Source: Acetobacteraceae bacterium
GTDB taxonomy: Bacteria; Pseudomonadota; Alphaproteobacteria; Acetobacterales; Acetobacteraceae
Direction of reading: 5' to 3'
Length of the DNA: 17,634 nt
Assembly: GCA_003164305.1 (NCBI GenBank)
Contig: PLSZ01000664.1
Span: forward strand, 174 to 17,807
Part shown: positions 1-9,662 of the stretch, one piece after another
Layout: each line of letters opens with the position of its first letter
How positions within the stretch are numbered: the first letter of the stretch is position 1
Notes under the pieces: generated by a model
Databases searched by the model: none
Seen by the model: the letters and a program-made list of their open reading frames with translations, nothing else
Told to the model about the DNA's origin: nothing
Translations under genes and position numbers: made by a program

Positions 1-3000
1 TTGCCGGTGTCGAGGTAACTTTCCGTCGGCAGTCCGTCCGCAAGCAGAACGTCATGCTGATCGAGTTCGACGTGATACCAGGTGACGAAGCGGCATTCGG
101 TATCCACCACGATCGAGGCGCCGTTCACCAACAACTTCGCCGGGATCAGCATGTCCTCGAAGAACACCGCGTGATCGGGCGACACCAGAAGGTCGCGATG
201 CGGGCGGTTTTCGGGGAAGGCTTCGGCGGCGATGCGGATCGGCCGCACGCGCGCCGGGTTGGGATGGCGGCCGATATCGACGCGCCGGTGACCGATCCAG
301 CGCACCACGCGCGGATCGCCCAGATGCGTCACCGCGACATCGCCGACCCGTAACGCTTCGACAGCGACTTCACCGCGTTCGGTCAGGATGCGCGTGCCCT
401 CGGCGAAACAGGGCGCTTCGAGCGTCAGCAGCGTATCGTTGCCGCTGTCGTCGGACTGATGGAACACCAGGCCGGTGTAACTGCCGCTCAATTGCTGCGT
501 GTAGGTGTTGGCGCCTTCCTTGACGACCAGCATGTCGCCGGAGCTGACCACCGCCGTGCCGCCGGCCACCAGCGGGATGGAGGTCAGATCGATCATGCCG
601 CCGCTGTTCACGGCGGTGCCGCTGACCGTGGTGACGCCGGCGGCGATCACCTCGGTGCCCCCGCTGAGCACGACCGTGCCGCTGACGATGCCGCCGGAGA
701 AGATCTTCTGCTGGCCGGCGAACCCCACGGTGATGAGGCGGGCGGTCGCGCCGCCTTCCACGAATTCGACGCCGCCCCCGGTCACGGTCGCCCCACTCAC
801 CATGCCGCCGGTGGACACGACCTGCAGGCCGCTGACGGTCGTCCCGCTGGCCAGCCCGCCGGTCGCCACGTACTGATCGCCGGTGCGGCCAAGGAAGCCG
901 GCGTCGTCGGTGCCGCCGGACGAGACGATCTCCATTGCGTCGCCGTCGATCGTCAGGCTGACGGCCGTGCCGCCTGACAGCAGCAGTTCGCCGTGGGTGC
1001 CGTTGACGATGGAGAAGCTGGCCGAGCCGCCGGAGAACACGACCTCGGTTCCGCTGACCGTGGTGAAGCTGGCGCTGCCGCCGCCGCTGACCGTCTGGCT
1101 GCCGCCGTTGCTGACGAACGCGGAGGTGGCGAGGCCACCGGAGGAAATGTACTGAAAGCCGCCGGAACCGATCGTGGTGAACAGGGCGACACCGCCGCTG
1201 TCGATGGCTTCCTGGCCGTGGCCCTCGATCGTCGTGCTGACGGCGCTGGCGCCCGCCGACACGTATTGAAAGCCGCCGGTGGTCAACGCGCTGCCGCTGA
1301 CGACGGACCCGCTGGCGGCGCCGCCGGAGCGGACGAACTCGTGGCCCATGTCGCCAACGAACGCGGCGCGGCCGGTACCGCCGGAGATGTCGTCTGAACT
1401 GAAGCCGGTCACCACCGCGCTGATGCTCAGGCCGCCGGTGGCGACCAGTTCGGCGCCGCCGTCGAGCACGGCCAGGCTGGCGCTGCCGCCGGAGTAAACG
1501 TTCAGCAAGCCGCCATCGGTCACGATGGACGCGCTGGCGGCGGCGCCGGAAAACACATTTTCCACGCCGCCGGACACCAGCGCGCTGACGGTGATCCCGC
1601 CGGACAGAATGTAGTCGGTCAGGCCGGCGGTGACCGACAACCCGGACACTGTCCCCGCCGGGATCGAGCTGACCGTCGGATCGCCCGACACCACCGCGAT
1701 CCCGGTACTGATCACCTGGGCGCCGCCGCTGGAGATCGTTCCGGAGACGTGACTGCCCGGCAACACCAACAAAACGCCGCCGCTGCTGACGGTGGTGAAC
1801 GTCGCGCTCGCGTGCGCGGAGACCACCATGAATCCGCCGGCATCGACGAAATCGCGGATCGCGGTGCCGCCACCGGAAACGTTCTCAAACCCGCCGCCGC
1901 TGACGACGGTGTTGCTGTCGATGCCGCCCGAGAACACGTTTTGCTGGCCGCCCAGCATCGTGCCGCTGGCTTCGCCGCCGAGAGCGATAGAGGCGTGACC
2001 GCCGGAATTGATCGTGGTGGCGGAGGCGACGCCGCCGTAAACGAGCTCGGACCCGTCGGTGTTGACGGTGGTGCTGGTGACGAAGCCAGCCAGGTCTTTC
2101 AGCGTGCCGGCCGCGTTCAGCACCGTGAATGACGCCGAACCGCCGCCGCCGATGACTTCCTGGCCCTCGAAATCGACCGTGGCGCTGACCGACAGGCCGC
2201 CGGTGACCTGCAACCCGCCTCCGGCGCTAACGGTGGTGAAGCTGGCCACGGCGCCCGCGTAGACGTATTCGGTGCCCCCCCGGCTGATCACGGCGAAGCT
2301 GTCGGAGCCGCCGGAGAATACCAGCGCATTGCCGCCGTTGCCCACCGTCGTCGCGATGGCGAGGCCACCGCTGTCCACGTTCTCGGTGCCGCTGATCAGC
2401 GCGTTGGTGGCGCTCCCGCCCGAGGAGATCGCCAGCGTGCCGCCGCCGTTCACCTGGGTTCCACTGGCCGCGCCGAGCCAGAGGACAGTTTCCGTCCCGC
2501 CCGCATCCACTGTGCTGCTGAGGGCCGTGCCGCCGGACAAAACGGTGTCGAACCCACTGTTGCCGATGACCGTGAAGACGGCCGTCCCGCTGGAGAGGAC
2601 CTGCGATCCCCCGGACGCCACGACGCTGGCGCTGACGGTACCACCGCTGACCGCCAGGGAGCCGCCGCTGATAACTGTCGTGCCGCTGGCGAGGCCACCG
2701 CTATACACGACCATGCTGGCGCCGCCGCCGCTGACGACGGCGCTGACGGCGACACCATTGTTGTAGACGTACTCGAAGCCAATTTCGACCTGAGTGCCGC
2801 TGGCGATCCCGCCCGCGGAGACCCGCTGGCTACCGCCGTCCACGACGGTGTCGCTGGTGACGCCGCCGTTGGTGATCGCCTCGAAGCCGCCGCTGACCAG
2901 TCCGCTGATCGCCAGCGCGCCGCCGCCGCCCACGTCCTGCTGGCCGCCGGCGCCGACCGTGGTGAAGTAGGCGGTGCCGGCTTCCTCCACGTAACTGGTG

Positions 3001-6000
3001 CCGGTGACGTCCGAGTAGTACTCCACCCCGCCCGACACCACGGCCACGACGCCGCCGGCGTTGACCGTGGTGCTGTCGAGAGTGCCGCCGGCGAACCCGC
3101 CAACCTGGCCCGCGTCGAGGCCGCCGACGTTGTTCACGATCACGCCGCTGGCTACGCCGCCGGAGAAGACGGTCATGTTGCCTTCGAAGTTCAGCGTCGT
3201 GCCGCTGGCCAGGCCGCCGGAGAATACCACCTCGCCGCCCGCGATGCCGACCGTCGCGTCATCGGAGATGCCGCCGGTGTAGACATACTCGGTGCCGCCC
3301 GAGGCGATTTGCGAACCGCTGGCGACGCCGTTCTTCAGGACGTAATCTGAGACGCCGCCGGAGATGTTCAGATCGACGGTTCGCGGTCCGTCGGACACCA
3401 GGACGCCGTCCGACAACACCACCACGCCGGTGGAAATGACGGTCCCGATCCCGGGATCGAGCACGTTCACGATGGCGCCCGGCAGCACGACCAGCGTGCC
3501 GCCGGCGCTGACCGTCGTGTCGGTCGCCGTGCCCTGGCTGTAAACGAAGCCCAGGCCGCCGCTGTCCACCTTCAGTCCGCTGACGACGCCGGAAGAGTAG
3601 ACGAATACGTCGGCGCCGCTGGATACGATCGTCGAATTGCCGGTGCCGCCGGAGCGCACGTTCTCGGTACTGGGACCGGTGCCCGGATCCTCGACCAGCG
3701 TGTTATCGGCGATCCCGCCGTCGCTGACATCCTGCACGCCGCCGCCATCGACGGTGGTGCCGCTGACGACGGAGAAGGCGGATACATCCTGCTCGCCGCC
3801 GATGACCGTCGTGAGGCGGGCGGACCCGGCGACCACTTGCTGCAACCCGTTGCCTTCGACCTGGGTGCCGATGGCCGTGCCACCCTCGACCTGCTCGGTG
3901 CCCAGTCCGAAAACGATGGTGCCGGTGGCGGTGCCGCCGGCATAGATTGCTTGCGCGGCGCCGGCATTGAGGGTCGTGAACTCGGCGACACCGCCGGACA
4001 GCACCAGCACGCCACCCAACGAGTTGACCGTCGCGTCCAGCGCGGTGCCCCCGGCGGACAGGTACAGGAAGCCGTCGCCATCGACGATTGTGTTCGCCGC
4101 CACGCCGCCGTGCAGCGCGTGCTGGCTGCCGCCGCCGCTGATGGTGGTGCCGCTGGCGACCGCGCCGGTGCCGTTGATCCACTGGTCGCCGCCGCTGAGC
4201 GTGGTGAAGCTGGCGATGGTGCCGGAGTAGACGTATTCGTTGCCGCCGCCGCTGATCACCGCGCTGAGGACGCCGCCGCCGGACAGCAGGTAGTCCGCCT
4301 CGTTGGCGCTGATCATCAGGCCGCTGACTTTGCCCGGATGGTCGGTCAGGACCACGCCGCCGGAGACGACGACGACCCCGCCGGACACCACCTGTCCGCC
4401 GGACACGATTGTCCCATCGACATGGCCGCCGGGCAGTTTGAACAGCACGCCGCCGCTGCTGACCACGGTGCCGCTGGCCAGACCTCCGGCCGAGACGAAC
4501 ACGAAACCATCGCTACCACTGCCGCCGCCCGCGGTTGTGTTGCTGGCGACGCCGCCGGAGGAGACGTAGAGGAAGCCACCGCCGATCACCGTGGAAGAAA
4601 GCGTGCTGGCGCCGGAGGAGACGTATTCGGAGCCGCCGCTGACCACGGTGAAGCTGGCGACCGCGCCGCTGGTGGCGCCACCCTCCGTCTCCACGTACAT
4701 GGTGCCGCCGGTGCCGACGGTGGTGTATCCGGCCGAGCCGCCGCCGAATACGCCGAGATTGCCGCCGGCGCTGATGATCGCGCTGATCACCAGGCCGCCA
4801 TCCTGCGCGTAGAGTTGCCCGTTGGTGACGGTCGTGCCGCTGGCGACGCCGCCCACCGATTCCGTGCCGCCGCCGCTGACCGTGGTGAAATACGTGATGC
4901 CGCCGCCGTTGACGTCCTGCTCGCCGCTGTTGCTGACGACGGTGTAGTCGGCTTCGCCGTCCACTGTCTGGTTGCCGCCGGACTCGACCGTGGTCGCGCT
5001 GGCGAGGCCGCTGGCGGAGACCACCTGATATGCGCCTGGGCCGCTGACGAGGGTGCCGGACGCGTAACCGCCGCCGGACACCGCCTCGATGCCGGCCGAT
5101 CCCACCGTCGTGAAGAACGCCGAGCCGCCCGCCAGAATCGTGTCCTGCGCCAGCCCGCCCGAGACGATGGCGCTGGTCAGCGTGCCGCCGCCGGAGACGA
5201 CGATGTTGCCGCCGGCGCTGACGATTTCGTAGGATCCGGAACCGCCGTTGGAGATGTATAAATAACCGCCGTTGCTGATTGTCGTGCCGCTGTCCGCGCC
5301 GCCACTGGAGACGTAGACGAAGCCACCGTTGCTGATCGTCGCGGAACTGTTCACGCCGCCGCTGGAAACCTGGATGGCGCCGCCGCCGCTGACGATGCCG
5401 CTGACCGCGGTGCCGCCGCTGAACACGACGATGCCGCCGTTGCTCAACACCGTGGTGTTGCTTCCGGTGGCGCCCCCATACACGAATTCGTTGCCGCCGC
5501 TGCTGAGGACGGTGAACTCGGTGTCGCCGCCATAGACGAACTGGATGCCGCCGCTCATGACGGCGCTGACGGCAAGGCCGCCGCTGTAGACGTTCTGGAA
5601 GGCGCTGTAGACGCCGATCGTGTCGCTCGCTACGCCGCCCGAGCTGATATACTGGCTGGCGCCGCTGCTGACGGTCGCGAACGTGGCGGTGCCGCCGCTG
5701 AAAATGGTCTGGTTGCCGCCGGTGCTTACGGTCGTGCTGATCGCCACGCCGCTGCTGTAGATGTACTCCTCGCCGCCGTTGCTGACGGTCGTGAAGCTGG
5801 CGGAACCGCCGGAACTGACGATCTCCTGACCGCCGTTGCTGATGGTGGTGAAGCTGGCGGAACCGCCCGAGGTGACGATGTCCTGACCGCCGCCGCTAAT
5901 CACGGCGCTGACGAGCGCGGCGCCGGTATCGACGAAAATGAACCCGCCTTCATCGACGGTGCCGAAGGCGGCGGTGCCTGACACGGTCTCGCCGCCGTCC

Positions 6001-6875
6001 CAGACGATTTGATAGGCGCCGGCGCTCAGGACCGTGCCGCTGGCCTGGCCGCCCTGCAGCACGTCCTGCGTGCCGCCGCTGCTGACGGTGGTGAAGAAAG
6101 CGACGCCGCCGCCCTGGATGCCGCCGATGTATTCGTTGCCGCCGCTGTTCACCATCGTGAACTCGGCGACGCCGCCGGATACCACGAGATTCTGGCCGCT
6201 GAAATTCACCACCGTGTCGCTCGCGACGCCGCCGGATGACTCGACCAACTGACCGCCGCTGAAGATCTGGGCGCCGCTGGCGAGACCGCCGGAAAACACG
6301 TTCTCGACGCCGCCGTTGCTCAGGATGGAGTAGCCGGCGGTGCCGCCGGACTCCACGCGGTCCTCGCCGCCGCTGCTGACCACCGTGCCGCTGGCGGTGC
6401 CGCCGGACGAGACGTACTGGTAGCCGCCGCTGCTGAGCACGGTGCCGGTCGCCAGGCCGCCGAAGTCGATCGTGGTGTCGCCGCCGCTGACCACCGTGTC
6501 GCTGGCGACGCCGCCAACGAAGACATACTGATGGCCCGCGAAGATCGTGGTCGAGATCGCCACGCCGCCGCTATCCACGACCTGCACGCCGCCGCTGATC
6601 GAGGTCGAGATGGCGGACCCGCCGGAATACACATCCTCGGTTCCGCCAGCGCTGACCACCGCGAAGCTGGCGGTGCCGCCGGTCAGCAACGATTCGTAAC
6701 CGCCGTTGCTGATCACCGTCGCGCTGGCGACGCCACCGGAGGAGACGACTTCCAGCCCGCCGTTGTTAACGGTGATCGCTTTGGCGGTGCCGCCGGAATC
6801 CACGATCAGGGTATCGCCCGCGTCGAGGGTCAGTCCGCTGGATGTGTGGCCGGAGGTCACGGACGTTATCGGCAT
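1..6875 (-). CDS. Giant AIDA-type strand-loop-strand repeat surface protein with C-terminal Hint domain (C-terminus cut by window edge)
   Basis: I read this frame codon by codon from the ATG at 6875-6873 to the window edge and found no stop, giving 2,291 complete codons. Residues about 1-27 form a short leader beginning MPITSVTSGHTSSG, with no hydrophobic signal peptide. Residues about 28-2120 are a Gly/Ser/Thr/Val array of roughly 19-residue units of the form GGxASxTxVSxGGxxxVxS, the strand-loop-strand repeat of AIDA-I-like autotransporter passengers, expected to fold as a beta-solenoid. From Cys2156 onward is a Hint domain. I saw no Cys codon in the repeat region. There is no autotransporter beta-barrel in the part visible, and given the Hint ending I expect only a few tens of residues to be missing. 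The likely role is a large exported adhesin or surface fibre, O-heptosylated by the enzyme encoded just upstream. The export route is unknown. The start is supported by AAGGAG seven bases upstream. Confidence 0.93.
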   Translation of the reverse strand, partial: MPITSVTSGHTSSGLTLDAGDTLIVDSGGTAKAITVNNGGLEVVSSGGVASATVISNGGYESLLTGGTASFAVVSAGGTEDVYSGGSAISTSISGGVQVVDSGGVAISTTIFAGHQYVFVGGVASDTVVSGGDTTIDFGGLATGTVLSSGGYQYVSSGGTASGTVVSSGGEDRVESGGTAGYSILSNGGVENVFSGGLASGAQIFSGGQLVESSGGVASDTVVNFSGQNLVVSGGVAEFTMVNSGGNEYIGGIQGGGVAFFTTVSSGGTQDVLQGGQASGTVLSAGAYQIVWDGGETVSGTAAFGTVDEGGFIFVDTGAALVSAVISGGGQDIVTSGGSASFTTISNGGQEIVSSGGSASFTTVSNGGEEYIYSSGVAISTTVSTGGNQTIFSGGTATFATVSSGASQYISSGGVASDTIGVYSAFQNVYSGGLAVSAVMSGGIQFVYGGDTEFTVLSSGGNEFVYGGATGSNTTVLSNGGIVVFSGGTAVSGIVSGGGAIQVSSGGVNSSATISNGGFVYVSSGGADSGTTISNGGYLYISNGGSGSYEIVSAGGNIVVSGGGTLTSAIVSGGLAQDTILAGGSAFFTTVGSAGIEAVSGGGYASGTLVSGPGAYQVVSASGLASATTVESGGNQTVDGEADYTVVSNSGEQDVNGGGITYFTTVSGGGTESVGGVASGTTVTNGQLYAQDGGLVISAIISAGGNLGVFGGGSAGYTTVGTGGTMYVETEGGATSGAVASFTVVSGGSEYVSSGASTLSSTVIGGGFLYVSSGGVASNTTAGGGSGSDGFVFVSAGGLASGTVVSSGGVLFKLPGGHVDGTIVSGGQVVSGGVVVVSGGVVLTDHPGKVSGLMISANEADYLLSGGGVLSAVISGGGNEYVYSGTIASFTTLSGGDQWINGTGAVASGTTISGGGSQHALHGGVAANTIVDGDGFLYLSAGGTALDATVNSLGGVLVLSGGVAEFTTLNAGAAQAIYAGGTATGTIVFGLGTEQVEGGTAIGTQVEGNGLQQVVAGSARLTTVIGGEQDVSAFSVVSGTTVDGGGVQDVSDGGIADNTLVEDPGTGPSTENVRSGGTGNSTIVSSGADVFVYSSGVVSGLKVDSGGLGFVYSQGTATDTTVSAGGTLVVLPGAIVNVLDPGIGTVISTGVVVLSDGVLVSDGPRTVDLNISGGVSDYVLKNGVASGSQIASGGTEYVYTGGISDDATVGIAGGEVVFSGGLASGTTLNFEGNMTVFSGGVASGVIVNNVGGLDAGQVGGFAGGTLDSTTVNAGGVVAVVSGGVEYYSDVTGTSYVEEAGTAYFTTVGAGGQQDVGGGGALAISGLVSGGFEAITNGGVTSDTVVDGGSQRVSAGGIASGTQVEIGFEYVYNNGVAVSAVVSGGGASMVVYSGGLASGTTVISGGSLAVSGGTVSASVVASGGSQVLSSGTAVFTVIGNSGFDTVLSGGTALSSTVDAGGTETVLWLGAASGTQVNGGGTLAISSGGSATNALISGTENVDSGGLAIATTVGNGGNALVFSGGSDSFAVISRGGTEYVYAGAVASFTTVSAGGGLQVTGGLSVSATVDFEGQEVIGGGGSASFTVLNAAGTLKDLAGFVTSTTVNTDGSELVYGGVASATTINSGGHASIALGGEASGTMLGGQQNVFSGGIDSNTVVSGGGFENVSGGGTAIRDFVDAGGFMVVSAHASATFTTVSSGGVLLVLPGSHVSGTISSGGAQVISTGIAVVSGDPTVSSIPAGTVSGLSVTAGLTDYILSGGITVSALVSGGVENVFSGAAASASIVTDGGLLNVYSGGSASLAVLDGGAELVATGGLSISAVVTGFSSDDISGGTGRAAFVGDMGHEFVRSGGAASGSVVSGSALTTGGFQYVSAGASAVSTTIEGHGQEAIDSGGVALFTTIGSGGFQYISSGGLATSAFVSNGGSQTVSGGGSASFTTVSGTEVVFSGGSASFSIVNGTHGELLLSGGTAVSLTIDGDAMEIVSSGGTDDAGFLGRTGDQYVATGGLASGTTVSGLQVVSTGGMVSGATVTGGGVEFVEGGATARLITVGFAGQQKIFSGGIVSGTVVLSGGTEVIAAGVTTVSGTAVNSGGMIDLTSIPLVAGGTAVVSSGDMLVVKEGANTYTQQLSGSYTGLVFHQSDDSGNDTLLTLEAPCFAEGTRILTERGEVAVEALRVGDVAVTHLGDPRVVRWIGHRRVDIGRHPNPARVRPIRIAAEAFPENRPHRDLLVSPDHAVFFEDMLIPAKLLVNGASIVVDTECRFVTWYHVELDQHDVLLADGLPTESYLDTG
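3..410 (-). other. Hint (hedgehog/intein) domain of the giant surface protein
   Basis: The domain starts at Cys2156 (TGC-type codon at 408-410) in the motif CFAEGTRILTERGEVAVEAL, a classic Hint opening with the nucleophilic Cys and the G-T-x-I-x-T strand. It continues with RVGDVAVTHLGDPRVVRWIG, then LLVSPDHAVFFEDMLIPAK, which carries the conserved SPDH block, and ends near YHVELDQHDVLLADG. This fits the bacterial C-terminal Hint family (Hint_2 type). Such domains can self-cleave or be transferred to a nucleophile, but whether this one is active cannot be told from sequence alone. The last few residues lie outside the window. Confidence 0.9.
1596..1781 (-). repeat. Punctuating module, copy C, inside the repeat array
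   Basis: This stretch begins VLLVLPGSHVSG, passes through VISTGIAVVSGD and ends VTAGLTDYILSGG. It is closest in layout to copy A. A few extra residues (PTVSSIPAG) sit in the middle. Confidence 0.73.
3327..3500 (-). repeat. Punctuating module, copy B, inside the repeat array
   Basis: This stretch begins TLVVLPGAIVNV, passes through ISTGVVVLSDGV and ends ISGGVSDYVLKNG. It follows the plan of copy A with much residue substitution, so it is an old duplication. It carries a charged segment (SDGPRTVDL) that is rare elsewhere in the array. Confidence 0.72.
4275..4448 (-). repeat. Punctuating module, copy A, inside the repeat array
   Basis: A stretch of about 58 residues departs from the 19-residue period. 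It begins VLFKLPGGHVDG, continues through a run of valines and SGG, and ends ISANEADYLLSGGG. The same layout (L-P-G-x-x-V, a Val-rich strand, then D-Y-x-L-x-x-G) recurs at 3327-3500 and 1596-1781. Confidence 0.75.
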
Positions 6876-6882
6876 GCGTCTA

Positions 6883-6888
6883 CTCCTT
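6883..6888 (-). promoter_or_regulatory. Ribosome binding site of the giant surface protein
   Basis: The minus strand reads AAGGAG followed by a seven-base spacer and ATG. This is a near-ideal Shine-Dalgarno and fixes the start at 6875. Confidence 0.8.
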
Positions 6889-6913
6889 CGATGCGGCTGA
6901 AACACCGCGCCGC

Positions 6914-6943
6914 GGGCCCCGTGAAGGAACCCCATTCCGGCCC
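6914..6943 (-). other. Possible hairpin in the leader of the giant surface protein
   Basis: In the 146-base gap between the two genes, GGGCC at 6914-6918 pairs with GGCCC at 6939-6943, and GGAA at 6926-6929 pairs with TTCC at 6935-6938. This makes an interrupted stem. No T-run follows, so it is not a convincing terminator, and transcription could continue from the heptosyltransferase gene into the surface-protein gene. Confidence 0.3.
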
Positions 6944-7021
6944 ATGCCAAATGGCTGGGACCTTAATCTTCTTCGGCTTCCCCACCGATGCGGCGTTTGT
7001 TGGTCCTGTTCGGACGGTTGC

Positions 7022-8440
7022 TTAAGCGGCCGGGACCTTTGTTCTGGCGGCGCGTCTTGTTGGCTCCGGGGCCCTGGACTCTGGAGCCGGGGGCTCCGCT
7101 ATCGGGGGGCGAGCCGGTGCGTGGACGCCAAATCCTGGCATGGTCTCGATCACCTGTTTGACCTGCGTGGCGGTAATCAGCCGTGTGCACTCGAAATGCC
7201 TCGGCGTGCCCTGATGGCGTGGGCACCAAAGAAAATCCTTGTGATCGAAGCGGTGCCGCGGGTCGTTCCAGCAGGAGTTGCAGGCGTGCCAGTTGATCAC
7301 CCGATACGGCGTCGCGAATTCATTGGTCGGATGGGTAAAGCCGCTGATCATCACGACCGGGCACCCGGCGGCCCAGGCGAGCCAGGCGAGGCCGGAGGAA
7401 AGGCCGACGAACATGGAGGCGTGGCGCAGCAGACGGGCCCGATCGACCAGGGGTTTGTCGCCGGTCTCGTCCTCCACCCCGTGCGGGATCTGGGTCCACA
7501 TCAGGCCGAAGCCGTGCACCGGCTTCTGGTCGATGCAGATCACGCGGTAGCCGTTTTCCTTCAGGAAGGCGACGGTTTCGCGCCAGCCGTTCGGATTGGT
7601 CCAGTACTTGCAGCCGCTGCTGCTTTGCACCGCGATGACCACGTAGGGCTCGGCGATCGGGCGAGTTTCGTCGGGCAGCTCGATTTTCGGCGGTTCCTCG
7701 GTCGGATCGACGCCCAGAATGTAACCGGCGGTGCGGTGCAGCCCGACGAGGCGGAAGTCGGTGGGCTGCCAATCGTTCGACTCGTCGCCGAAAAAGACGC
7801 CGAGCGAATAGGTCGCGTACATCGTGTCGGCCAGCTTGTACTCGACGGCTTCCTCGTGCGTCACGAGGCGCAGATGCGGGTAAGCGTCGCGCAGCAGCGG
7901 GATGATCAGGCCCGACATCGCGCAGGTCACGCGGCATTGGGCGAACTTGTCGGCGAAGCGGGCGGCGTAGGGAAACCAGGCGAGGATATCGCCCAAAGTC
8001 CCGACCGGGAACTGGATCAGCACGTCCTGGTGCAGCGGGTCGTAGTCGTGGGTCATGACCGGCCGCGGTTCGGCGCCCGGTTCCTCGGCGATGTCCCAGA
8101 TCTCGACCCGGAAGCGGACGTACCAGCGTTTGGCGGAATTGACGAAAGCGCCTTTGTTTTCCGACTCGAAGAGGATGTTGCCGGTGTCGAGGTCGCGCAG
8201 CCGGACGCGCCATTTGCCGGAGGTTCGCGCCGGCAGCAAAACGCGGCAGCCGAGGTTGAAGTCGAAGCGGATGCCTTCCGGGCCGATCAGGACCGGGGTG
8301 GCGGCGGCCGGCGGGTAAGGCGATTTCGCTTCGGCGGCGGGTTGGGCGGTCTGGCTGGCCTGGCTGGGGGCGGATTGGATGCTTGACAAGGCGGGGTCGG
8401 CGGCACTGGCCGCGGACTCGGTTCCCGGCGGACTGGTCAT
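7022..8440 (-). CDS. Autotransporter strand-loop-strand O-heptosyltransferase (Aah/TibC type)
   Basis: The 472-residue product resembles the bacterial autotransporter heptosyltransferases, which move heptose from an ADP-heptose donor to Ser/Thr of strand-loop-strand repeats in the cytoplasm before export. Residues 55-145 form the N-terminal beta-rich region. PVGTLGDILAWFPYAARF (146-163) carries Asp151, which sits where TibC has its catalytic Asp (from memory of the family). A Rossmann-like half follows, with GLSSGLAWLAWAAGCPVVMI at 346-365. The iron finger is complete: Cys387-x2-Cys390-x15-Cys406-x11-Cys418. Extra to the family are an Ala/Ser/Pro/Gln-rich N-terminus (1-50) and a Pro/Ala tail (440-472). 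I chose the ATG at 8440 because GGAG lies five bases upstream; a GTG at 8458 lacks a good site. It is encoded 146 bases upstream of its presumed substrate on the same strand. Confidence 0.93.
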   Translation of the reverse strand: MTSPPGTESAASAADPALSSIQSAPSQASQTAQPAAEAKSPYPPAAATPVLIGPEGIRFDFNLGCRVLLPARTSGKWRVRLRDLDTGNILFESENKGAFVNSAKRWYVRFRVEIWDIAEEPGAEPRPVMTHDYDPLHQDVLIQFPVGTLGDILAWFPYAARFADKFAQCRVTCAMSGLIIPLLRDAYPHLRLVTHEEAVEYKLADTMYATYSLGVFFGDESNDWQPTDFRLVGLHRTAGYILGVDPTEEPPKIELPDETRPIAEPYVVIAVQSSSGCKYWTNPNGWRETVAFLKENGYRVICIDQKPVHGFGLMWTQIPHGVEDETGDKPLVDRARLLRHASMFVGLSSGLAWLAWAAGCPVVMISGFTHPTNEFATPYRVINWHACNSCWNDPRHRFDHKDFLWCPRHQGTPRHFECTRLITATQVKQVIETMPGFGVHAPARPPIAEPPAPESRAPEPTRRAARTKVPAA

Positions 8441-8527
8441 CGGAACTCCGTTCAGCACGCCACGCGATGGGCATTGGCCTTGAAGGCGTTCGGCGGGAAC
8501 GTGAAGGCCTTCGGGAAATGGAATTTT

Positions 8528-8556
8528 AAATTAGAAGCAATCCAGAATTTCGTAAA
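8528..8556 (-). promoter_or_regulatory. Candidate promoter for the heptosyltransferase/surface-protein pair
   Basis: On the minus strand TTTACG (8556-8551) is followed after 17 bases by TAATTT (8533-8528). Each is only a partial match to the sigma-70 boxes. The placement in the AT-rich core upstream of the gene is the main support. Confidence 0.25.
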
Positions 8557-8726
8557 GCGTTAACATTGGCTGAAAAACTCAGCATTTCCATCACATCGGC
8601 CGCGCACGCGACGTTTTACACACCCACGCGTGCCGCTGGCGACGTCCGGAGGGCGGGATCGTTGGCCGCGTTCCGGCCGCGGCGGTTTGAAAGCGCGCTC
8701 GTCACGCCCAGAAAATGAATTCCGTC

Positions 8727-8756
8727 TTGCCTACTGATAACCTTCGCGGTCATATT
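8727..8756 (+). promoter_or_regulatory. Candidate promoter for the 67-residue protein
   Basis: TTGCCT (8727-8732) and CATATT (8751-8756) are separated by 18 bases, each matching four of six consensus positions. The implied leader is about 24 bases and contains the strong ribosome site of the gene. Confidence 0.32.
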
Positions 8757-8786
8757 GTGCGGCGCAACATTTTTCAGGAGGGCAAG

Positions 8787-8990
8787 ATGAGCGACCGGGC
8801 GATGGGATTCGAGCGGCCACCAGTCGTTTATTGCGATTCAATCCACGCCGCCGGATTGCACAATGGCAACATGCGTATGTTGCTCACGCGATTGGACGTG
8901 GATGGCAAGCCGATGCCGGCGCTGGAACTGATCCTGCCGTTTGGCGAAGTGAAAACCATGATCGCCGCCTTGCAAAAGATCAGCAGGTGA
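8787..8990 (+). CDS. Small conserved-looking protein of unknown function (67 residues)
   Basis: The frame starts at ATG 8787 behind a very strong Shine-Dalgarno, AGGAGGG at 8776-8782, four bases away. An upstream in-frame ATG at 8715 has no such site, so I prefer the short form. The product starts MSDRAMGFERPPVVYCDS and continues HAAGLHNGNMRMLLTRLD, then LELILPFGEVKTMIAALQKI. The alternating hydrophobic pattern, the Pro before a final amphipathic helix and the lack of any membrane segment suggest a small cytoplasmic alpha/beta protein. The layout recalls short DUF3467-like proteins, but the match is only in style and I do not assign it. Codon use is normal for the window. Confidence 0.7.
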   Translation: MSDRAMGFERPPVVYCDSIHAAGLHNGNMRMLLTRLDVDGKPMPALELILPFGEVKTMIAALQKISR

Positions 8991-9029
8991 CCAGATGTTC
9001 GATCTGAAGATCAGAATTTCGACATCTCG

Positions 9030-9056
9030 CAGGCGCGTCTGGGCTGCACGCGCCTG
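9030..9056 (+). terminator. Hairpin downstream of the 67-residue gene, possible terminator without a T-run
   Basis: CAGGCGCGT (9030-9038) and ACGCGCCTG (9048-9056) are perfect 9-base complements with a 9-base loop. The hairpin lies 39 bases after the stop codon. No U-tract follows, so termination by this element alone is uncertain; it could also protect the transcript end. Confidence 0.4.
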
Positions 9057-9167
9057 TCCGAAACCGCCGCCGGTCCGGTGACGATCGGCACTGGTGAATT
9101 GACAAAAGTTCGTCAGCTCAGGTAGTCGACTTACGTTCGGTACAACAATCGTCCGGGTTCAAAACAC

Positions 9168-9392
9168 GTGCCAACGGAAAGCCGGTCCGAGCTCACCGTC
9201 CTTTTAGCGCGCTGTTTCCAACAATTGGAGACAACACGCCATGCGCAGTCGCGCGATGTGCTTCACTGCATGATTGAGCGTTTGGAAGGAAAATTGGACG
9301 CGCTCGAGGACCCGGCGGTGCCGGAGCGGCTCGCTGATTCTCCCCTCGCTGATGCTGCCCGGATCACCACCGCCCACCGATGGTGTACGTAA
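9168..9392 (+). CDS. Small helical protein of unknown function (74 residues), paralogue of the next gene
   Basis: The frame begins at GTG 9168 and has no clear Shine-Dalgarno, so the start is uncertain. The product reads MPTESRSELTVLLARCFQQL and then runs as a long amphipathic helix through IERLEGKLDALEDP. It shares the pattern S-R-x-E-L-x4-A-R and a following heptad-like helix with the protein encoded at 9461-9658, which suggests a tandem duplication followed by divergence. The stop overlaps an alternative start of the next gene, so the two are probably co-transcribed. No function is recognised. Confidence 0.5.
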   Translation: MPTESRSELTVLLARCFQQLETTRHAQSRDVLHCMIERLEGKLDALEDPAVPERLADSPLADAARITTAHRWCT

Positions 9393-9407
9393 ACGCACGT
9401 TACGAAC

Positions 9408-9464
9408 AACAGGAAGCAATGGACGACCAACAGGAAGCAACGGGCGAACAGGAGGAAGCAATGG
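9408..9464 (+). repeat. Threefold repeat of a ribosome-site plus start-codon unit
   Basis: AACAGGAAGCAATGG (9408-9422), AACAGGAAGCAACGG (9429-9443) and AACAGGAGGAAGCAATGG (9447-9464) are near-identical. The first two are spaced by 21 bases and the third has a 3-base insertion. Each unit is an AGGA-type ribosome site followed by ATG, ACG or ATG. All are in the same frame. Confidence 0.8.
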
Positions 9465-9658
9465 CCTCACAAAGTCGCGCCGAACTGAGCCAACAAATCG
9501 CCCGTCGTCTCGAAGCCGTACGGTCCGCCCAGAGCGGGCTGGCGCGTGAGACGGCACTGCATGTGCTGATGCGGGCGGAGGCGGAACTGGCGGATCTGGA
9601 TCGCGCCGCCGCGCGGCCGGAATTCGCCTACACCCTGGCCGCTGTCCCGGCGAACTGA
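9461..9658 (+). CDS. Small helical protein of unknown function (65 residues)
   Basis: I place the start at ATG 9461 because GGAGG lies five bases upstream. In-frame ATGs at 9419 and 9380 would add a repetitive Gln/Glu-rich leader (QEAMDDQ, QEATGEQ, EEAMASQ). The product starts MASQSRAELSQQIARRLEAV and continues HVLMRAEAELADLDRAA, an amphipathic helical protein rich in Ala and charged residues, without membrane segments. It resembles the preceding gene product and follows it directly. Its stop is only four bases from the stop of the convergent oxygenase gene. Function unknown. Confidence 0.62.
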   Translation: MASQSRAELSQQIARRLEAVRSAQSGLARETALHVLMRAEAELADLDRAAARPEFAYTLAAVPAN

Positions 9659-9662
9659 GGCG

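Follow-up and report, generated by a model that had tools for sequence, protein, structure and literature searches.

The window, that is, the whole stretch of 17,634 nucleotides that was analysed, lies on a GC-rich contig; most of the closest relatives of this contig in the genome collection belong to the Acetobacteraceae. It carries, on the minus strand, the gene of a TibC/Aah-type O-heptosyltransferase and, downstream of it after a gap of 146 bases, the gene of a protein composed of strand-loop-strand (SLS) repeats and a Hint_2 domain, which is still open at the window edge (Table 1). Both the enzyme family and the repeat family have already been described and named by NCBI. An interpretation made from the letters alone (the sequence-only reading) had proposed that the two genes form a self-contained glycoprotein system, in which a giant O-heptosylated protein ending in a Hint domain is exported by a route different from that of the autotransporters.

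Table 1. Coordinates of the features of the heptosyltransferase and SLS-repeat genes in the window
Feature	Position	Strand	Basis
TibC/Aah-type O-heptosyltransferase	7022..8440 (ATG, 472 aa) or 7022..8458 (GTG, 478 aa)	-	TIGR04414, PF21129, PF01075, 4rap
Iron-finger stretch C393-C424, C-x2-C-x15-C-x11-C	7187..7282	-	Aligned with TibC cysteines
Predicted catalytic Asp157, counterpart of TibC Asp110	7988..7990	-	Alignment with TibC
Intergenic gap between enzyme and repeat genes	6876..7021	-	146 bases, same strand; frame coordinates
SLS-repeat protein bearing a Hint_2 domain (2,291 codons or more)	3..6875 (frame 3-6950, likely start ATG 6875)	-	Frame open at window edge
SLS repeat region, presumed O-heptosylation target (residues ~33-2140)	531..6854	-	TIGR04415, PF16168, 4q1q
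Hint_2 (Hedgehog/intein-type) domain, Cys2181 to residue 2315, presumed cleavage just before Cys2181	6..410	-	PF13403, 155.4 bits

The enzyme scored 608.6 bits with the TIGR04414 model (cut-off, 200), matched the TibC N-terminal domain PF21129 (90.6 bits) as well as PF01075, and aligned over residues 53 to 439 with the TibC crystal chain 4rap (415.6 bits). Assignment to the lipopolysaccharide (LPS) heptosyltransferases was rejected, since the LPS heptosyltransferase I model gave 22 bits for a cut-off of 185.3. Cysteines C393, C396, C412 and C424 align with Cys-339, Cys-342, Cys-358 and Cys-370 of TibC, which are named as its iron ligands in the available excerpts of the TibC study (PMC4358343). 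These excerpts also describe as catalytically inactive the D110A variant of TibC, which affects the counterpart of Asp157 (PMC4358343). The four cysteines of the finger and Asp157 are invariant across 18 aligned homologues. Thus, the full Cys-x2-Cys-x15-Cys-x11-Cys iron finger and the grouping with Aah and TibC rather than with LPS heptosyltransferases, both put forward by the sequence-only reading, were borne out. In the alignment, Ser354 occupies the position of TibC Pro300; the counterpart in Aah is Ser294, and the TibC study links a serine at this position with an enzyme that accepts both forms of ADP-heptose (PMC4358343). On this basis, the enzyme is predicted to use donors as Aah does.

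The heptosyltransferase family is large and already named, since the protein search returned 3,952 relatives among 7,997 scored candidates; its founding paper is said to be that of Lu et al. 2014. In the plasmid and phage collections, the family was present on 218 plasmid records and on four distant phage records. A gene annotated as an FkbM methyltransferase in Microcystis phage Mel-JY01 (PP395634.1, 7348-8424) is a distant heptosyltransferase relative (33.6% identity, 79% of the query). Tandem pairs of complete heptosyltransferase genes were observed, among the matches listed, in nine genomes (G056, G077, G079, G107, G129, G157, G159, G171 and G188).

TIGR04415, a model of O-heptosylation targets, matched 33 stretches of the repeat protein (634.9 bits), PF16168 matched 14, and the TibA chain 4q1q matched the repeat region with an E value of 4.2e-43, confirming that the repeats are of the AIDA type. 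The repeat period is 19 residues, and the 82 S-G-G motifs of the protein compare with a mean of 14.8 and a maximum of 28 in 500 shuffles of the same composition; an open frame repetitive by chance was rejected on these two grounds. The uninterrupted frame of 2,291 codons was correctly counted from the ATG at position 6875, but the count is a lower bound because no stop codon occurs before the window end. Likewise, the substrate is very large in the window, but size is not essential to the arrangement, as SLS-Hint open reading frames (ORFs) found directly beside the enzyme elsewhere encode 669 to 2,082 residues. The N-terminal sequence M-P-I-T-S-V-T-S-G leads directly into the repeats, as in most of the listed relatives, and no Sec signal peptide was seen there by hydropathy and inspection only. 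No match to the barrel domain PF03797 was found in the visible part of the protein, the 3′ end of the gene being beyond the window, in agreement with the earlier statement that the substrate has no visible barrel. The substrate was not classified as an autotransporter because no signal peptide was found.

The Hint_2 domain, matched once, at residues 2180-2315, exceeded the PF13403 cut-off and contains the nucleophile Cys and the block-B His. Its predicted structure (pLDDT 91) matches inteins, a bacterial intein-like (BIL) domain and Hedgehog, and Cys2181 falls on Hedgehog residue 258 and on intein residue 1 of the HINT fold. The nucleophile Cys and three His are conserved in 94-96% of 54 sequences, a set that includes related loci. 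By sequence, the piece comprising the pre-Hint region and the Hint domain matched no PDB chain at E <= 1. The earlier statement that the protein ends in a Hint domain holds for its visible part only, since 45 to 729 residues follow the Hint match in the 52 3′-closed Hint ORFs of relatives. A conserved tail of ~180-210 residues lies behind many Hint domains (L028, 8983-9588, and 15 other loci). The post-Hint tails of relatives matched no Pfam family except for stray matches (16 sequences) and no known secretion signal family, and the model of the L028 tail (pLDDT 76.9) matched no PDB chain at E <= 0.001. Two SLS-Hint proteins, L034 (5563-9045) and L039 (6651-11456), are unlike the others in having 724-729 post-Hint residues, the end of which is glycosyltransferase-like by eye. 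The C-terminal residue is Ala in 35 of 53 3′-closed Hint ORFs and in 103 of 706 other ORFs, a post hoc comparison with six-frame ORFs as the background; perhaps this reflects a C-terminal sorting signal.

The enzyme and the SLS repeats occur together in Acetobacteraceae genomes, as revealed by a survey of 150 genomes from this family, to which the closest relative of the window belongs. The enzyme was over cut-off in 40 genomes (57 with any match) and the SLS repeats matched in 42 (40 over cut-off). Both were present in 38 genomes, the enzyme alone in two (G079 and G158), SLS repeats alone in four (G051, G066, G142 and G155, the last with an enzyme fragment under the cut-off) and neither in 106 (Fisher P = 1.5e-28); the surveyed genomes are kin, so that P values are too small and the counts therefore weigh more. 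HldE domain II, which is needed for ADP-heptose, matched in 147 of the genomes (137 over cut-off), and the LPS heptosyltransferase I model TIGR02193 was over cut-off in none, with weaker matches in 149. The Hint_2 domain was detected in all 40 enzyme genomes and in 79 of the 110 others (119 in all). Because so many genomes devoid of the enzyme also carry it, and because there are 39 copies in G001, Hint_2 looks like a general module of large Acetobacteraceae proteins, the SLS repeat being one passenger among others. Copy numbers per genome in the survey are lower bounds where the candidates were capped (at least 24 for G001, compared with 39 in the other count); the 39 Hint_2 domains per genome in both G001 and G008 amount to a large expansion.

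Gene neighborhoods were compared for 80 enzyme loci, the best 80 of 350, which lean to close relatives. An SLS or Hint gene directly adjoins the enzyme gene in 40 of these loci, is located further off in seven and is missing in 33, three of which have less than 1.5 kb of sequence available downstream. The 40 adjoining genes include 21 with a Hint domain, 13 that run off the sequence before their 3′ end and six that are 3′-closed with no Hint domain in frame, one of which (L010) has a Hint domain in an overlapping frame. The locus of the closest relative, L001, displays 85-87% DNA identity with the window across the enzyme, oxidoreductase and molybdoenzyme genes, and its enzyme gene stands in the same gene order; no repeat-protein match was found in L001, where a cytochrome c gene comes after the enzyme. 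Other contigs of that relative's genome (G001) carry SLS genes, and three of the fetched ones have a Hint domain (L085, L087 and L088); a further SLS gene (L090) sits beside the second enzyme of that genome. A self-contained system is thus not supported: no such neighbor was found for the enzyme of L001 or in the 33 loci, and the window yielded no gene for the donor sugar or for export.

Information on the export route was sought in the genomes that encode the enzyme. The barrel domain PF03797 was over cut-off in 18 of the 40 enzyme genomes, gave a weak match in one and no match in 21; as far as the assemblies are complete, these 21 genomes have no barrel autotransporter for the enzyme to modify. 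Distinct 3′-closed SLS ORFs with at least three repeats in the fetched loci, the SLS stretches among which were hand-picked from the matches listed, comprise 31 with and 22 without a Hint domain, 22 more being cut at the 3′ end. A terminal motif, chosen after the sequences had been inspected, is common to 11 of the 22 ORFs without Hint, nine of these 11 coming from genome G143, and a slightly looser form of this motif occurs in none of the 31 Hint ORFs and in none of 1,909 other ORFs. When the C-termini of ten Hint-free SLS ORFs were scanned with Pfam, RTX repeats were found in three (L081, L084 and L093), a barrel in one (L076), FG-GAP in one (L119) and SLS repeats alone in five. The barrel-bearing protein L076, from Trinickia, is also the only one to display a classical-looking signal peptide among the N-termini listed.

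HlyD genes (TIGR01843 over cut-off) were present in four of the 80 enzyme loci (L007, L044, L048 and L065), for 0.39 expected from the 29 such genes in 22 hand-picked enzyme genomes amounting to 94 Mb (P = 7e-4). HlyB (TIGR01846 over cut-off) was present in three of them (L044, L048 and L065), and the order on one strand of L048 is SLS, heptosyltransferase, HlyB, HlyD. A HlyD subfamily (L136 as the query, E <= 1e-60) was detected in all 40 enzyme genomes and in 67 of the 110 others. After the addition of two split cases, Hint and this subfamily were found together in 99 genomes, HlyD alone in 10, Hint alone in 20 and neither in 21 (P = 1e-7), and in genome G136 one contig carries both HlyD and an SLS-Hint gene, ~10 kb apart. 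Together, these results indicate that the SLS substrates in Acetobacteraceae enzyme genomes seem mostly not to be autotransporters, many SLS proteins having a Hint_2 domain or an RTX-type tail at their end, and that the case for type I export is fairly good for the SLS proteins taken together. The different export route that the sequence-only reading had implied from the visible part of the protein, in which neither a signal peptide nor a barrel was seen, is likewise backed by the barrel and HlyD surveys, which favor a non-type V route.

We propose that the two genes of the window encode a BAHT-type pair for protein O-heptosylation, in which the substrate is probably exported by a type I system rather than as an autotransporter; taken as a whole, this reading has, in our estimate, an even chance of being correct. 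Gene order, family membership, conserved catalytic residues and co-occurrence were observed directly, and each of the following steps of action is one that we infer. As its family suggests, the enzyme would very likely act in the cytosol as a TibC-like ring that transfers heptose from ADP-heptose onto serines of the SLS repeats. A type I system with its genes at another genomic location may then export the substrate, which would carry a C-terminal targeting signal in the part outside the window; we consider this step slightly favored. Cleavage before Cys2181 by an N-S acyl shift of the Hint domain after export is rather likely. It would free the heptosylated passenger from the C-terminal export module, or pass the passenger to an acceptor. 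By analogy with AIDA-I and TibA, the repeat protein would likely act in adhesion or self-aggregation. In a bolder version, which is quite unlikely, the Hint domain would act as in Hedgehog: a thioester would form at Cys2181 after type I export, and the heptosylated passenger would be passed to a surface acceptor (a lipid, e.g., a hopanoid, or an amine), giving a covalently anchored O-heptosylated coat with neither barrel nor sortase.

Several observations weigh against this proposal. In addition to the kinship of the surveyed genomes, 18 enzyme genomes hold a barrel, and no RTX repeats (PF00353) were found in the visible part of the window protein at E <= 0.01. Genome G024 contains the enzyme and is one of the three genomes with no HldE domain II match. 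The SLS proteins of the four HlyD loci have no visible Hint domain, or (L065) no SLS gene was called by the profile; among 28 fetched type I loci, a Hint ORF was found in one (L137) and the enzyme in one (L141). Type I export is thus supported only indirectly for proteins of the Hint kind, as in the window. Furthermore, the HlyD subfamily is common in genomes lacking the enzyme, and at the chosen cut it is missing from 20 of the 119 Hint genomes. The scarcity of Hint ORFs in type I loci and these 20 genomes also speak for an explanation that retains the proposed glycosylation, with the SLS-Hint protein leaving by a non-type I route (another exporter or lysis) or with the Hint domain as an inactive structural cap, as does the conserved post-Hint tail with its lack of resemblance to known secretion signal families. 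We regard this explanation as doubtful: type I genes do occur beside the enzyme in the four loci, and the idle-cap variant is weakened by the conservation of the Cys and of the three His, residues that an idle cap could do without.

The enzyme might alternatively serve other or several SLS proteins of the genome, the neighbor being one substrate of many or none, as the 33 loci with no SLS or Hint gene and the retention of the enzyme in L001 would suggest. The direct adjacency seen in half of the loci and the strong TIGR04415 score of the window neighbor make this unlikely. An ordinary AIDA-type autotransporter, with a barrel beyond the window edge and a Hint domain inserted between passenger and barrel, is very improbable. 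The 3′ end of the repeat gene does lie outside the window, and L076 of Trinickia illustrates that barrel-bearing SLS proteins exist beside such enzymes. However, L076 has a signal peptide, whereas none was seen by inspection in the window protein, 49 of the 52 3′-closed Hint ORFs have at most 212 post-Hint residues, too few for a barrel model that spans 255 positions, and the barrel of L076 is the only one that the ten scanned C-termini of Hint-free SLS ORFs yielded.

The pair of the window resembles the TibC-TibA and Aah-AIDA-I systems of E. coli in the enzyme family, the iron finger, the catalytic Asp and the position of the enzyme gene ahead of the substrate gene on one strand, and its repeats are related to those of TibA, Ag43 and AIDA-I. 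The substrate differs from TibA and AIDA-I in that neither a signal peptide nor a barrel is visible in it, in its Hint domain and in its length of at least 2,291 codons. Its Hint domain is similar to the autoprocessing domains of the Hint_2/BIL and Hedgehog types (PF13403, HINT fold, Cys2181 at the nucleophile position), from which the window protein differs by a passenger that is presumably a glycoprotein and its relatives by a post-Hint tail that matches no known fold. Features shared with type I RTX adhesins are a large repeat protein with no visible N-terminal signal, the RTX repeats of some SLS relatives and the HlyB/HlyD genes of some enzyme loci, but the window protein shows no RTX repeat in its visible part, its C-terminus being beyond the window. 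In the available excerpts of two publications, heptosyltransferases of the BAHT/TibC-like family are described as enzymes of type V autotransporters (PMC4358343, PMC8151025). In the open-licence literature, subscription journals being outside the search, we found no paper that connects an enzyme of this kind to proteins with a Hint domain or to proteins secreted by type I systems, nor any on O-heptosylation of a type I substrate in the cytosol, as presumed here.

The results delineate a large environmental branch in which the enzyme and SLS repeats are paired; about half of its enzyme genomes gave no barrel match, and a domain presumed to cleave itself is frequent. This suggests that heptosylation of surface repeat proteins works with more than one export machine. 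If the proposed pair is confirmed, cytosolic O-heptosylation would be linked with the repeat fold rather than with type V secretion, and harmless acetic acid bacteria could offer a second export system in which to examine a question left open in a review, the release and export of the glycosylated passenger.

Scans of the window for tRNAs and Rfam families gave zero matches. Promoter and terminator scans gave one match each near the genes, compared with 0.4 and 2.6, respectively, in shuffled sequences. The other recognised genes of the window lie to the right of the enzyme and have metabolic or transport functions; they encode a CmcJ/NvfI-type oxidoreductase, a xanthine-dehydrogenase-like molybdoenzyme, an HpaH hydratase, a Bcr/CflA efflux transporter and a second molybdopterin enzyme. 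The interval 8441-9662 contains small frames, including 8715-8990 on the plus strand, which has no family match. This interval separates the enzyme from the oxidoreductase by ~1.2 kb, and ~160 bases occupy the same place in the syntenic locus L001.

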